This document shows, one piece after another, positions 12,570-17,642 of a stretch of DNA of 34,228 nucleotides; the stretch's first letter is position 1; each line of letters starts with the position of its first letter. The DNA lies in NCBI GenBank assembly GCA_025358575.1, contig JANYJA010000120.1, forward strand, positions 1-34,228, in the 5' to 3' direction. Made by a program: the position numbers and the translations under genes. This stretch comes from Terriglobia bacterium. Lineage in GTDB: Bacteria; Acidobacteriota; Terriglobia; Bryobacterales; Bryobacteraceae. The notes below the pieces were generated by a model. It saw only the letters and a list, made by a program, of their open reading frames with translations. It had not been told where the DNA came from and did no database searches.

Positions 12570-13247
12570 GTGATGTTGCTGCTGGCTCTCGGACTGATTT
12601 TGGCTGTGATGGCGAGCGCGGCCTGGACAGTGAGAGGCTCCGGAATGCCGCTAATCGTGGCTTTGGCGATCCTCGCCTTCGGAGTGATTTCTATTAACCC
12701 GCTAATCGAAGCCGTGGTGTTTGGCGTGATGCCGATTGGGGACGTGCCGACGATCATGGCAGGGCAGTTATTTCTAGCCGTGGTCGTGTCGTTGATCGCT
12801 GTTGCGGCCTGCGGGAAACTGCGGCACAGCAGCCAAAGTTCCACTGCTTGGCAACTGCCACTCACGAGACTCGGCCTGGCCGCCCTCTGTTATTGCGCTC
12901 TTTATTTGGCGGCGGGAACTTTGGTGTTGCCATTTGTCAAGGAGTTTTACGCCACTCGAACATTGCCGCCCATGGCGATGGTGATTGGTTTGCAACTGGT
13001 GCGAGGACCACTCTACGTCCTTTACGCGTGGCCATGGTTTCGCTTAGCCCCGCGCCATCCCGGGTTGGTGCTCGGGCTCGTCTATTCGGTGGTGGGCGGA
13101 GTGGCCCCGCTCCTATTGGACAATCCTTACATGCCTCAAGCCGTGCGGATGGCGCACATGGTTGAGGTTGGTGTCTCCAATTTTCTGTTCGGACTTGTGG
13201 TGGCGCGGTTGATTCGCCCGCGGCTTTCCAGGGCGAAAGAAACTTAA
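12570..13247 (+). CDS. multi-pass membrane protein of unknown function
   Basis: This 225-residue hydrophobic protein has about seven predicted membrane segments, for example near residues 2-18, 24-46, 57-78, 95-115, 125-145, 155-175 and 192-212. It ends in a basic cytoplasmic tail (RLIRPRLSRAKET). GGAGG at 12556-12560 lies nine bases before the GTG at 12570; an ATG follows directly at 12573 and could also be used. No catalytic or transport motif was recognised. It stands alone between a divergent NHL gene and the ArsR cassette, whose promoter region begins a few bases before its stop codon. Codon use looks like that of its neighbours. Confidence 0.72.
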   Translation: MMLLLALGLILAVMASAAWTVRGSGMPLIVALAILAFGVISINPLIEAVVFGVMPIGDVPTIMAGQLFLAVVVSLIAVAACGKLRHSSQSSTAWQLPLTRLGLAALCYCALYLAAGTLVLPFVKEFYATRTLPPMAMVIGLQLVRGPLYVLYAWPWFRLAPRHPGLVLGLVYSVVGGVAPLLLDNPYMPQAVRMAHMVEVGVSNFLFGLVVARLIRPRLSRAKET

Positions 13248-13305
13248 GTAAGGACTTGACAATTACCTCGCGCGCGGTAATACTTAAGCAAGTACTTAAC
13301 AATAA
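13242..13305. promoter_or_regulatory. promoter region with two 24-bp direct repeats, probable ArsR-type operator
   Basis: Two imperfect 24-bp copies begin at 13242 (ACTTAAGTAAGGACTTGAC...) and 13282 (ACTTAAGCAAGTACTTAAC...). They agree at 20 of 24 positions and are spaced 40 bp, close to four DNA helical turns. They contain the short palindromes ACTTAAGT and AAGTACTT. The first copy includes a TTGACA -35-like box (13256-13261), and a weak TAATAC -10-like box sits between the copies. The downstream operon encodes an ArsR regulator, so autoregulation through these repeats is the likely inference. Confidence 0.6.
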
Positions 13306-13331
13306 GTGGTTCGAAAGAAGGAAAACACACA

Positions 13332-13805
13332 ATGGACGAGCAAACCGTAATTCACAGCACATTCGTTATCGAGCGCAGTTTTCGCAACACGCCTCGGCAA
13401 GTATTCGCGGCGTTAGCGGACCCAGCTAAGAAGCGGCGCTGGTATGCCGACGGCGAAAGCCACGACGTCGAGGAATTCGAAATGGATTTTCGAGTCGGGG
13501 GCATTGAAAGAGTGAGTTATCGACTCAAGGCAGGCACGCCGTTTCCAGGGACCTCGCTGATGAACGATGCCAGTTATCGGGATATTGTGCCCGATCGCCG
13601 CGTGGTCATGACCTCCGCGATGACTTTCGGCGGCCGGCGCATCTCCGCGTCTCTGTCCACCTTTGAATTGTTGCCAACCGAAAAAGGGACCGACCTTATC
13701 TTCACGGAGCAGGCAGCGTTCTTTGAAGGCGCTGATGGTCCTCAGATGCGTGAAGCCGGATGGCGCCAATTGCTCGAACGGTTGTCGAATGAGCTTACCG
13801 GTTAG
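13332..13805 (+). CDS. SRPBCC (AHSA1-like, START-fold) protein
   Basis: This 157-residue soluble protein belongs to the AHSA1/CalC-type SRPBCC superfamily. It starts with a strand and helix of the type FVIERSFRNTPRQVFAALAD, continues with KKRRWYADG, and ends with GWRQLLERLSNELTG. The fold makes a deep hydrophobic cavity; no catalytic residues can be named. A purine-rich AAGAAGGAAAA stretch precedes the ATG. The stop codon TAG overlaps the GTG start of the ArsR gene by one base. Such ArsR-SRPBCC pairs are widespread and usually autoregulated, and the SRPBCC partner may bind a small hydrophobic ligand. That role is inference. Confidence 0.88.
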   Translation: MDEQTVIHSTFVIERSFRNTPRQVFAALADPAKKRRWYADGESHDVEEFEMDFRVGGIERVSYRLKAGTPFPGTSLMNDASYRDIVPDRRVVMTSAMTFGGRRISASLSTFELLPTEKGTDLIFTEQAAFFEGADGPQMREAGWRQLLERLSNELTG

Positions 13806-14137
13806 TGTCGAGTCAAAAAGTCAAGATCGACCGTGTCTTTCATGCCCTGGGCGATCCTACGCGCCGGGCGATCATCGAGAAGCTCAGCCAAGGCCCAATT
13901 TCGGTATCCCGGTTGGCAACGCCGCTGGACATGAGTCTGGCAGCGGTAGTTCAACATTTGCAGGTATTGGAGGAATGCGGGCTGGTGCGCACCGAAAAAC
14001 TCGGTCGGGTCCGAACGTGCGGCATCGATCCCGCGGGTCTTTCGGTTGCGGAGAAATGGATCGGCGAACGGCGGTCAATCTGGGAACGGCGGCTTGACCG
14101 GCTGGGTGATTTGCTCGGCGAGTCCGCTGAAAAGTGA
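13805..14137 (+). CDS. ArsR-family winged-helix transcriptional regulator
   Basis: This 110-residue DNA-binding protein begins VFHALGDPTRRAIIEKLSQGP, the typical first helices of the ArsR/SdpR group. The recognition helix segment MSLAAVVQHLQVLEECGLV and the wing (RTEKLGRVRTCGID) follow. No metal-binding Cys pair of the ELCVCDL type is present, so this is not a classical metal sensor. The GTG start overlaps the SRPBCC stop by one base (TAGTG), implying coupled translation. The likely targets are the direct repeats at 13242-13305 upstream of the operon. It is followed 16 bp later by the interrupted hydrolase gene. Confidence 0.9.
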   Translation: MSSQKVKIDRVFHALGDPTRRAIIEKLSQGPISVSRLATPLDMSLAAVVQHLQVLEECGLVRTEKLGRVRTCGIDPAGLSVAEKWIGERRSIWERRLDRLGDLLGESAEK

Positions 14138-14153
14138 AAGGAGGCGACGCAGT

Positions 14154-15008
14154 ATGATGCGGCTATTATCGATTTCTATTTTGTTGGCGGGCGCACTGAC
14201 CGCCGCCGACACCACGTACGACGGTTCGCGAGTCCACTACGAAAGCTACGGAACCGGCAAGGACGCTATCGTTTTCATCCATGGATGGACTTGCGACCTG
14301 ACTTTCTGGCGCGCTTAGGCTCCGGTCTACCAAAAGCACCGCGCTTTGCTGGTTGACCTGCCAGGTCACGGCCGCAGCGAGTCTCCAGAAGTCCCGTATA
14401 CGCAGGAGAGGTTTGCCCGCGCTGTTGAAGCGGCGATGCGCGACGCGGGTGTTGAGCATGTCATTCTCGTGGGACACAGCATGGGTGGCCCAGTCGCGCT
14501 CACCTTCCTGCGTTTGTTCCCGGCCAAGACCAAAGCGCTTGTCCTGGTGGATGCCTATGTCCCGAAGGCTCCAAAAGACGACGCGGAACGGGCGAAGCAA
14601 AAGGCCCAGATGGAGCCGTTCATTCATTCCTTCCGCGTGCCAGGTTATAAAGAAACAGCGCAAAAAATGATCGAGACGATGTTCTCCGATAGAACTACGC
14701 CGGCGCAACGCGAGGAGATCCGCTCTAAGATGCTGTCCACTCCGCGGCATGTGATGGCCTCGGCGATGGAGGGCATGTTCGCGCTTGACGCACCGAAGGC
14801 TGGGGAGACTTACACCTTGCCGGTGATGGTAACTATGGTGGCGAGACCCGAGCGCACGGGGTATGAAGCCCAGCTCCGCACCGTGTTCCCGAATCTCAAG
14901 TACGAAGAATGGCAAGGGTCGGGACATTTCCTGATGATGGAAAGTCCAGATCGCTTCAATCGCGCCCTGGAGGCGTTTGTCGCGGGAATTGGGAATCCGA
15001 AGGAGTGA
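14154..15008 (+). pseudogene. secreted alpha/beta hydrolase interrupted by an amber codon
   Basis: The frame starts at the ATG at 14154, nine bases after a perfect AAAGGAGG at 14137-14144. It encodes a signal peptide (MMRLLSISILLAGALTAAD) and the oxyanion-hole strand IVFIHGWTCDLTFWRA. A TAG then stands at 14316-14318, and the same frame continues without any other defect to 15008. The downstream part has LLVDLPGHGRS, the nucleophile elbow VGHSMGGP, a strand LVLVDAY and the catalytic-His segment GSGHFLMMESPDRFN. The total is about 284 residues, normal for the family. A single CAG to TAG change would explain the break. It could be a recent pseudogene, a sequence error or a read-through site. 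It is the third gene of the SRPBCC-ArsR cassette; a dienelactone- or peroxidase-like substrate cannot be specified. Confidence 0.82.
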
Positions 15009-15023
15009 TTTTCGCGGGCGTTC

Positions 15024-17642
15024 CTAAATCCATTTCTTCCGCAGCAGCCAGACTTTAAACGTTTGTGTCAGTCCCACGTAGGCGAGCAGCGTCGCCAACA
15101 GGATCGGCCAGTAAAGCGCGGGCAGTTGCGTGAAGCCCAGCGCTGGGGCCATCGGAGAGTATGGCAGCCACATCCCGAAACCCATGATGGATAGCGTCGT
15201 CAGCGTCAACGCGGGACTCGCCCGGCTTTGGATGAAAGGAATTTTATTGGTGCGGATGACGTGGATGATGAGCGTCTGCGTCATCAGCGATTCGACGAAC
15301 CAGCCGGTCTGAAATACAGGCGCGCGCGCGGGGTCCCAGCATTTGAAAACCCATAGCATTACAAAGAAAGTCGTGTAGTCGAAGATCGAACTGATGGGGC
15401 CGATGAAGAGAATGAACCGCTTGATCTCACCGATGTCCCATGGGCGCGGCCGGGCCACTTGCTCTTCGTCCACCGAATCGGTCGGGATCGGCACCTGCGA
15501 GAAGTCGTAAAGCAGGTTGTTGGTCAACACCTGGATTGGGGCCATGGGCAGGAACGGGAGAATGGCGCTCGCCCCCAGCACGCTGAACATGTTGCCGAAG
15601 TTAGAACTCGCCCCCATACGGATATACTTGAGAATGTTCGCGAAGACCTTGCGGCCCTCGGTCACGCCGCCTTCGAGCACCATGAGATCCTTCTCGAGCA
15701 AGATGAGATCGGCCGACTCCTTAGCGATATCGGTGGCCGTGTCGACCGAGATGCCGACGTCGGCTGCTCGCAACGCCGGGGCGTCGTTGATTCCATCGCC
15801 CATGAATCCGACGACATGACCTTTCCCGCGAAGGGCCCGGATGACGCGCTCCTTGTGGGCCGGAGAGAGGCGGGCAAAGAGCGTCGTTTTCTCGGCCGCC
15901 TCAGCCAGCTCGGGGTCGGACATTTTTTCCACGTCGGCGCCGATCAGCATCGGGTCGGGGAGAAGGCCCACGTCCTTACACACTTTGCGGCTGATGAGGG
16001 GGTTGTCTCCCGTCAGTATCTTCACCGCGACCCCATGCTGACGAAGCGCTTCTAGGGCGCTCGCGGCGGTATCCTTCGGGGGGTCGAGGAACGCGACATA
16101 GCCTCTGAGAACTAACTCGTGTTCGTCATTCTTCGCGCAGATTTGCTTTCCGGGAAGTTCCCTGGTTGCCACCGCCAAAACGCGGAAGCCGTCATTGCTG
16201 AGACTCTCGTACTCTTCTTTGAGACCGCCGATCAGAGCGGGGTCCATGGGGGAGAGTTTACCGTCAAGTTCAAACTGCGAGCAGTTGCGGAACACCTCCT
16301 CTGGAGCCCCTTTGGTCAGCAGGATCGAATTGCCTCCCGGATCTTCCACCAAAACAGACATCATCCGCCGGGTGAAGTCGAACGGAATTTCATCCATTTT
16401 TTTGTACTTGTCGATAGCCGCTTTTTCGTGGAAGTCCGGGCTGTCCAGAATAGCTCGGTCGAGCAGGTTCTTCAGGCCAGTCTGGAAATGGCTGATGAGG
16501 TAACCGTCGAGCAGCACGTCGTCGGTTTCGCGGCCCGCCACGTTGCAATGGCGCATGAGGACCACGCGATCTTCGGTGAGTGTCCCTGTCTTATCCGTGC
16601 ACAAGACATCCATGCCGCCGAAGTTTTGAATCGCATTGAGGCGCTTAACGATCACCTTGCGGCGGCTCATGGCGAGCGCGCCTTTGGAGAGGCAAACCGA
16701 GACGATCATCGGTAGCATCTCGGGCGTGAGACCCACGGCTACGGCCATGGCGAAGAAGAACGCGCCTTTCCAATCGTGTTTGGTGAAGCCGTTGATGAGG
16801 AAGACCATCGGCACCATTACGGCCATAAATCGCAGCATCAGCCACGTGAAGCGGTTCAGTCCCCGATCGAAACTGGTCGGCGCGCGTTCGCCCGTGATGG
16901 AACTGGCCATGCTGCCGAAATAGGTACGCGCGCCGGTGGTGACCACCACAGCCGTGGCCGTGCCGCTCTCGACGCTGGTTCCCATAAAGCAAATGTTCTT
17001 GAGTTCAGTAGGCGAGATCACCGTTGCGGGTTCTGGATCGTGGAACTTCTCGACCGGGAGCGACTCGCCGGTCAGACTTCCCTGGCTGACGAAAAGGTCT
17101 TTGGAAGTGAGCACCCGGATGTCGCCCGGAATCATATCGCCAGCGGACAGTTGGATCATGTCGCCGGGCACCAGGTCGCGCAGCGGGATCTCCGTCGCTT
17201 TACCTTCGCGAACGGCTGTGGCGGTCACGTGGATCATGGCCTTGAGCTTCGCCGCGGCGGCGTCCGCTCGGGCCTCCTGCCAGAAGCGAAGTCCCACGCT
17301 GAGCGCGACCATCATGGCCATTACGGTGCCGGCACGGGCATCACCGGAAGCGAAGGAAATGGCCGAGAGTGTTGCCAGCAGAATTACGAGCGGGTTGCGG
17401 ATGATCTTGAAGAGGCGGACAGGCCAGCCTTGCGGTTTCTCCTGCGCAACTTCGTTTGGACCGCCGGTGCGCGCGCGCTCTTCGGCCTCGGACTGCGTCA
17501 GTCCGGCGGGTGTAGTGCGCAAATCGCGCAGCAGTTCCGCGCCGTCTTTTCGGGCGGCGTCAAGCACCGCGGGAGACACCTGGATGGTCTTGTTGTGATT
17601 GGATTTCGGCGGTGAGGGAGCGGCCGCATCGGGTGCTGTCAT
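15024..17642 (-). CDS. magnesium-translocating P-type ATPase (P3B, MgtA/MgtB type)
   Basis: This 872-residue inner-membrane pump is predicted to import Mg2+ with ATP hydrolysis. A cytoplasmic N-terminus rich in Ala and Pro precedes a cation-ATPase N domain (TTPAGLTQSEAEERARTGGPNEV). The first pair of membrane helices lies near residues 80-120, followed by the actuator loop with GSLTGESLPV. The VGLTPEMLPMIVS helix and the phosphorylation motif CTDKTGTLTE with Asp350 come next, then KGAPEEV in the nucleotide domain and GFMGDGINDAPALRAADVG. Six C-terminal helices contain LTNNLLYDFSQVPIPTD, which is typical of MgtA/MgtB. The ATG is preceded by AAGGAA. It lies 117 bp downstream of oxyR on the same strand and is convergent with the hydrolase. 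No leader RNA was recognised. Confidence 0.93.
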   Translation of the reverse strand: MTAPDAAAPSPPKSNHNKTIQVSPAVLDAARKDGAELLRDLRTTPAGLTQSEAEERARTGGPNEVAQEKPQGWPVRLFKIIRNPLVILLATLSAISFASGDARAGTVMAMMVALSVGLRFWQEARADAAAAKLKAMIHVTATAVREGKATEIPLRDLVPGDMIQLSAGDMIPGDIRVLTSKDLFVSQGSLTGESLPVEKFHDPEPATVISPTELKNICFMGTSVESGTATAVVVTTGARTYFGSMASSITGERAPTSFDRGLNRFTWLMLRFMAVMVPMVFLINGFTKHDWKGAFFFAMAVAVGLTPEMLPMIVSVCLSKGALAMSRRKVIVKRLNAIQNFGGMDVLCTDKTGTLTEDRVVLMRHCNVAGRETDDVLLDGYLISHFQTGLKNLLDRAILDSPDFHEKAAIDKYKKMDEIPFDFTRRMMSVLVEDPGGNSILLTKGAPEEVFRNCSQFELDGKLSPMDPALIGGLKEEYESLSNDGFRVLAVATRELPGKQICAKNDEHELVLRGYVAFLDPPKDTAASALEALRQHGVAVKILTGDNPLISRKVCKDVGLLPDPMLIGADVEKMSDPELAEAAEKTTLFARLSPAHKERVIRALRGKGHVVGFMGDGINDAPALRAADVGISVDTATDIAKESADLILLEKDLMVLEGGVTEGRKVFANILKYIRMGASSNFGNMFSVLGASAILPFLPMAPIQVLTNNLLYDFSQVPIPTDSVDEEQVARPRPWDIGEIKRFILFIGPISSIFDYTTFFVMLWVFKCWDPARAPVFQTGWFVESLMTQTLIIHVIRTNKIPFIQSRASPALTLTTLSIMGFGMWLPYSPMAPALGFTQLPALYWPILLATLLAYVGLTQTFKVWLLRKKWI

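Follow-up and report, generated by a model that had tools for sequence, protein, structure and literature searches.

Upstream of adjacent genes for an SRPBCC-domain protein and an ArsR-family regulator, the DNA analysed here (34,228 nucleotides, referred to in full as the window) carries two similar sequences, and the question is whether they are the sites through which the ArsR protein controls its own cassette. An earlier note on this DNA had described them as 24-bp direct repeats with 20 matches beginning 40 bp apart, and our recount of 13242-13265 against 13282-13305 gave the same figures (20/24 positions identical, 40 bp start to start). Taken from the window alone the repeat is only suggestive: when 40 versions of the window were simulated with an order-1 Markov model, 2 of them contained a pair of at least 20/24 within 100 bp, which is borderline. 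A promoter scan identified TTGACA and AATACT as the sole promoter-like pair in 13100-15100 (1 against 0.7 ± 0.9 expected). The TTGACA box lies under the first copy, as had been claimed, but the second copy is not just downstream of the -10 box, since its palindrome starts inside it (Table 1). There are indeed two like copies, but each is a palindromic site of its own, with a half-site consensus of about TACTTAAGT inverted around an N4 spacer, and the likeness between two palindromes mimics a direct repeat. We rejected the direct-repeat reading because each copy is palindromic and because positions 5 and 18 of the second site, O2, covary (mutual information 0.384, 0/1000 permutations; given the relatedness of the sequences, not a probability in the strict sense).

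Table 1. Features of the cassette region, in coordinates of the window
Feature	Position	Strand	Basis or remark
Upstream ORF, 225 aa	12570..13247	+	stop TAA 13245-13247 falls within O1
Predicted operator O1, palindromic, AACTTAAGT-AAGG-ACTTGACAA	13241..13262	+	right half includes the -35 box
-35 box TTGACA	13256..13261	+	promoter scan
-10 box AATACT	13279..13284	+	promoter scan; spacer of 17 bp to the -35 box
Predicted operator O2, palindromic, TACTTAAGC-AAGT-ACTTAACAA	13281..13302	+	starts within the -10 box
SRPBCC/AHSA1 gene, 157 aa	13332..13805	+	PF08327, E 2e-16
ArsR-family regulator gene, 110 aa	13805..14137	+	PF01022, PF12840, NF033788
Alpha/beta hydrolase frame, broken by TAG	14154..15008	+	Pfam match; TAG 14316-14318

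The regulator has an ArsR-type winged helix domain (PF01022, E 1.7e-11; PF12840, E 1.9e-11; NF033788, 73.5 bits against a cut-off of 55), and the order of helices in its predicted model agrees with that fold. Its gene adjoins the SRPBCC/AHSA1 gene as in the ArsR-COG3832 module, the GTG start of arsR overlapping the SRPBCC stop codon by one base. The metal motifs of metalloregulators are a Cys pair in alpha3 and an Asp/His set in alpha5. Reading the window ArsR by eye we found no metal-binding motif, with Cys58 and Cys72 as the only cysteines and no His in the C-terminal helix; the usual metal-site cysteines are thus missing, as had been claimed, although the protein does have two others. This excludes the metal-sensing type, not membership of the ArsR/SmtB family. 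Since Cys72 is kept in 64/64 homologues with paired sites, a thiol-reactive signal is one option for the inducer, and an organic ligand is possible. In the predicted model Cys72 sits in the second strand of the wing. The hydrolase, which had been counted as a member of the cassette, fared less well. Its frame is interrupted by a TAG that is either a real nonsense codon or an assembly error, and the alignments of three relatives (L141-L143) read through this place. Among 11 other hydrolase loci examined, only L144 has a neighbouring ArsR gene, and in L039 and L044 the ArsR gene is adjoined by a different, distant hydrolase. We therefore rejected the hydrolase as a conserved member, and it is probably not a working one, because the frame is broken and few cassettes contain it. 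The hydrolase frame has a signal-peptide-like start, and the ORF upstream of the promoter had no match in Pfam or NCBIfam.

The earlier note had expected the repeats to recur in homologous cassettes. An order-level search covered 257 genomes, of which 126 had an ArsR match at E<=1e-15, and a scan of the genome contigs gave at least 66 loci. The sample comprised 96 loci (L002, L005-L099); one, whose start lay beyond the contig, was skipped, and after removal of 9 duplicates 86 distinct upstream regions remained. Using the site consensus TASTTAAGT-N4-ACTTRACTA and calling a pair when two sites each matched at least 12/18 specified bases, we found the pair in 65/86 promoters against 1/688 shuffled regions (0/688 with a pair at 38-43 bp), a count that is not blind, as the consensus was drawn by eye from the same loci. 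The pair was present in 37/44 SRPBCC-first and 27/33 ArsR-first cassettes and in 1/9 unclassified ones. Its spacing was 40 bp in 36 cases, 39 bp in 16, 41 bp in 8, 35 bp in 2, and 38, 43 and 66 bp in one each, so that 60/65 pairs fell at 39-41 bp. The 64 pairs at 35-43 bp come from Acidobacteriota, Actinomycetota, Myxococcota, Planctomycetota and Pseudomonadota, 24 of them from the window's own family. The idea of a functionless resemblance that arose by chance, for which the pairs of equal quality in the simulated windows might speak, is refuted by this comparison and by the match between regulator and site described below, within what sequence can show; next to no probability remains for it.

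Four further loci carry the pair further upstream, ahead of an extra first gene (DUF3738 in L031; RibD_C in L039, L044 and L045), and L087 reaches a weaker pair criterion only. In L039 (1382-3321) and L044 (1235-3318) the operator pair is followed by genes for RibD_C, an alpha/beta hydrolase and ArsR, and no match to SRPBCC was found; judged by gene content, the cargo of these two loci is swapped while regulator and operators are retained. The locus scored at 66 bp, L025, also has a 40-bp pair, and over 120-1815 it carries two divergent ArsR-SRPBCC cassettes back to back, their ArsR proteins 54% and 70% identical to that of the window and each cassette apparently with its own operator type.

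These comparisons support the claim made for the repeats: very probably the cassette's own ArsR uses them as operators. We consider it highly likely that they make up a self-repressing promoter, in which ArsR dimers on two 22-bp palindromes cover both core boxes. The winged-helix dimer would bind one palindrome at the -35 box and a second at the -10 box and the start region, keeping RNA polymerase off both core elements, until a signal releases ArsR and SRPBCC and ArsR are made together. The palindromes, their position in the promoter, their conservation with the ArsR subfamily and the agreement of residue 46 with base 5 are observed; from them we infer that ArsR binds and represses and that both sites are occupied, along with the presence of an inducer and its nature. 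Autorepression is favoured because sites that lie on both core boxes are in keeping with repression. Against it, the window copies are imperfect palindromes (half-site symmetry at 5/9 positions in O1 and 6/9 in O2; the L155-type and L176 sites are more symmetric), a twin layout also occurs in L152, one of 20 distant paralogues, and 16/86 loci showed no pair within the upstream DNA examined. Several of these have one clear site, a single strong site being present in L029, L050, L093 and L094; one site is likewise seen in the held-out loci L175, L176 (a repeat of L050) and L189-L191. Because several loci show one clear site, two sites are not essential to the system. A further point against autorepression is that the ArsR-family autorepressor Rv2034, in the available parts of the report on it, also acts positively on some promoters (PMC3338718). 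It is nevertheless very improbable that ArsR acts from these sites as an activator of the cassette or that another regulator binds them, since the sites lie where repression is expected, match the ArsR recognition helix, and accompany the ArsR subfamily through changes of gene order, of phylum and, in a few loci, of cargo. Equally slight is the probability of a toxin-antitoxin-like module with ArsR as antitoxin and autoregulator and SRPBCC as toxin; this was raised as a possibility in a paper which, in the parts seen, itself favours antibiotic resistance (PMC2701414), and the replaceable cargo of L039 and L044 speaks against it. We thus retained autorepression by ArsR as the preferred reading.

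The spacing near four helical turns had been taken to place both copies on one face of the DNA, where ArsR dimers would bind cooperatively, and the narrow range of spacings agrees with that proposal. However, with 10.5 bp to the turn, 40 bp makes 3.8 turns, and the spacing follows the promoter. The -35 hexamer lay within the right half of O1 in all 64 pairs (TTGACA 34, TTGACT 22, TTGACC 5, TTGAGT 2, TTTACA 1) and O2 began inside the -10 hexamer across the paired set. Operator spacing equalled promoter spacer plus 23 in 64/64 pairs with the boxes at fixed places, a link built into this layout, for which the exceptions are the informative cases. Spacing and spacer were 40/17 in 36 of the 64, 39/16 in 16 and 41/18 in 8, the spacer thus being 16-18 in 60/64. 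In L056 and L061, both Kutzneria with sites 35 bp apart, a promoter spacer of 17 bp is restored by a TTGACT 5 bp further left; in L040 (43 bp) a spacer of 17 is restored with TTTAAT, and L055 (38 bp) has a spacer of 15. A Pro46/Gln50 sister clade (10 loci, 47-53% identical) showed two clear sites in 8/10 loci, 35 bp apart in 7 and 36 bp in 1, and none clear in L206 and L208. Its best promoter spacer, in a scan that allowed 14-20 and preferred 17 on ties, was 17 in 7/10 loci, 18 in 2/10 and 16 in 1/10. Sites about 35 bp apart are separated by 3.3 turns, half a turn off the common layout. Because such layouts keep promoter spacers of 16-18, promoter geometry rather than helical phase seems to set the operator spacing; we rejected helical phasing as the main constraint, and same-face cooperativity as the explanation is unlikely. 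The natural variation between 40 and 35 bp offers a ready test of helical cooperativity against promoter geometry as the source of operator spacing. All ArsR-first cassettes with a pair (27/27) have an ATG or GTG in frame within O2, exactly 7 nt past the -10 hexamer, and because of this position the arsR mRNA of these cassettes is predicted to be leaderless.

The sites also vary together with the regulator. The recognition helix is predicted at residues 45-57 (protein-only model, mean pLDDT 88.6), with residue 46 in second place. Among the 64 paired loci, G at position 5 of the left half of O1 or O2 went with Thr46 in 11/11 cases, and the remaining 53/53 had Ala46. A held-out set of 40 further loci contained 23 pairs, of which 5 repeated loci of the first set and 18 were scored; the 17 without a pair were 10 loci of the Pro46 clade and 7 with one or no clear site. 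Thr46 occurred with G in 10/10 and Ala46 with a base other than G in 7/8, a strict total of 17/18, the exception being L196 with G in the left half of O1 and another base in O2. When the majority base at position 5 was taken over all 143 distinct loci, of which 26 without a clear site by our rule were dropped, 117/117 scorable loci obeyed (G with Thr46 in 32/32, another base without Thr46 in 85/85). Within the Lys50 subfamily alone, Thr46 was found with G in 10/10 loci, and Pro, Asn or Ala with another base in 9/9. Asn46 with C was seen in few loci (L153, L156, L167), and residues 49/50 agree with positions 7-9 only as a contrast between clades. A quick tree from which the columns of the recognition helix were left out puts the changes at 5 or more for each trait and at 5 for the joint state; only one independent contrast falls on well-supported branches, so a sign test cannot reach significance. 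That residue 46 causally sets base 5 we infer only, because well-supported independent switches are few. Taken jointly, the following reading appears to us somewhat more probable than its failure in any part: the ArsRs of SRPBCC cassettes would have a readable code in which residue 46 sets base pair 5 (Thr-G, Asn-C, Ala/Pro mostly T) in two subfamilies about 40% identical and residues 49/50 go with pairs 7-9, while the Gln50 subfamily would embed two operators in the -35 and the -10 box of a single promoter, with O1 sliding against the -35 box (about 40 or about 35 bp) at a constant promoter spacer of 16-18 bp. From the residue-46 rule it can be predicted how exchanging a single amino acid would alter DNA specificity.

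Part of this arrangement has been described. Rv2034 of Mycobacterium tuberculosis was reported in 2012 as an ArsR autorepressor in an operon with the polyketide_cyc2/SRPBCC-type Rv2035, and its footprint contains CCGTAAGT-N4-ACTTACGG, a 20-bp palindrome (PMC3338718). As far as the available parts of that report go, the system shares with ours the ArsR/SRPBCC-type operon and, with sites of the window type, the AAGT-N4-ACTT core and its spacer; O1 has the core AAGT-AAGG-ACTT and O2 the core AAGC-AAGT-ACTT, one base off. It differs in having one site in its promoter and in its outer half-site letters, CCG against TACT/TAGT here; this comparison rests on operator and operon, not on a protein alignment. 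The two-gene ArsR-COG3832 module was described in 2009 with expansions in Solibacter and others, with the same gene pair and likewise without metal-binding motifs, and the parts of that account that were seen contain neither operators nor promoter layout (PMC2701414). The best PDB sequence match of the window ArsR was the ArsR-family structure 3f6o (E 7.7e-28, profile 4.6e-37), whose recognition helix has Pro46/Met49/Lys50 as in L096 and L097, the site of which is TACTTAACC-N4. The literature searched, with subscription papers mostly outside it, mentioned neither twin operators embedded in a promoter nor a residue-46/base-5 rule. The gene pair, the absence of metal motifs and the Rv2034 type of operator are thus already known, and the twin operators and the residue-46 rule, of which we found no report, are apparently new. 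For this widespread module, promoter, operators and specificity residue become predictable from sequence.

The twin layout is not private to the Gln50 subfamily, a view we rejected on the evidence of L152. The Gln50-type consensus gave a pair in 0/20 regions around ArsR paralogues of the same taxonomic family (39-47% identical). By the paralogues' own consensus, TASTNAACC-N4-GGTTNASTA, with both sites at >=11/16 (1/230 in shuffles), 14/20 had a single palindrome, L152 carried its own type of twin sites at 41 bp, and L162 had two palindromes 22 bp apart. In the Lys50-type paralogues L157, L159, L161 and L166 two palindromes, 16 bp apart, overlap close to the start codon. We rejected a larger regulon within the window's own genome, as ACTTAAG-N5-ACTTRAC with up to 2 mismatches gave 11 matches against 64 for the reversed control; the only exact matches were the two window sites. 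In the taxonomic family, with 237 genomes scanned, 51 matches to the promoter pattern were found in 50 genomes, against 8 for the reversed control (summed over rows). Of these 51, 30 loci were examined; 26 had SRPBCC downstream (in L113 after a DUF3738 gene), and no ArsR/SRPBCC match was found in the other four, L118, L122, L126 and L139. In L118 an O1-like site and one half of an O2 precede a MacB/FtsX-type gene, and L122, L126 and L139 have the promoter only, without palindromes. Near locus position 1500 of L122 and L126, this palindrome-free pattern precedes a gene starting M-KIIGIDLGTTNSVV, with the appearance of DnaK.
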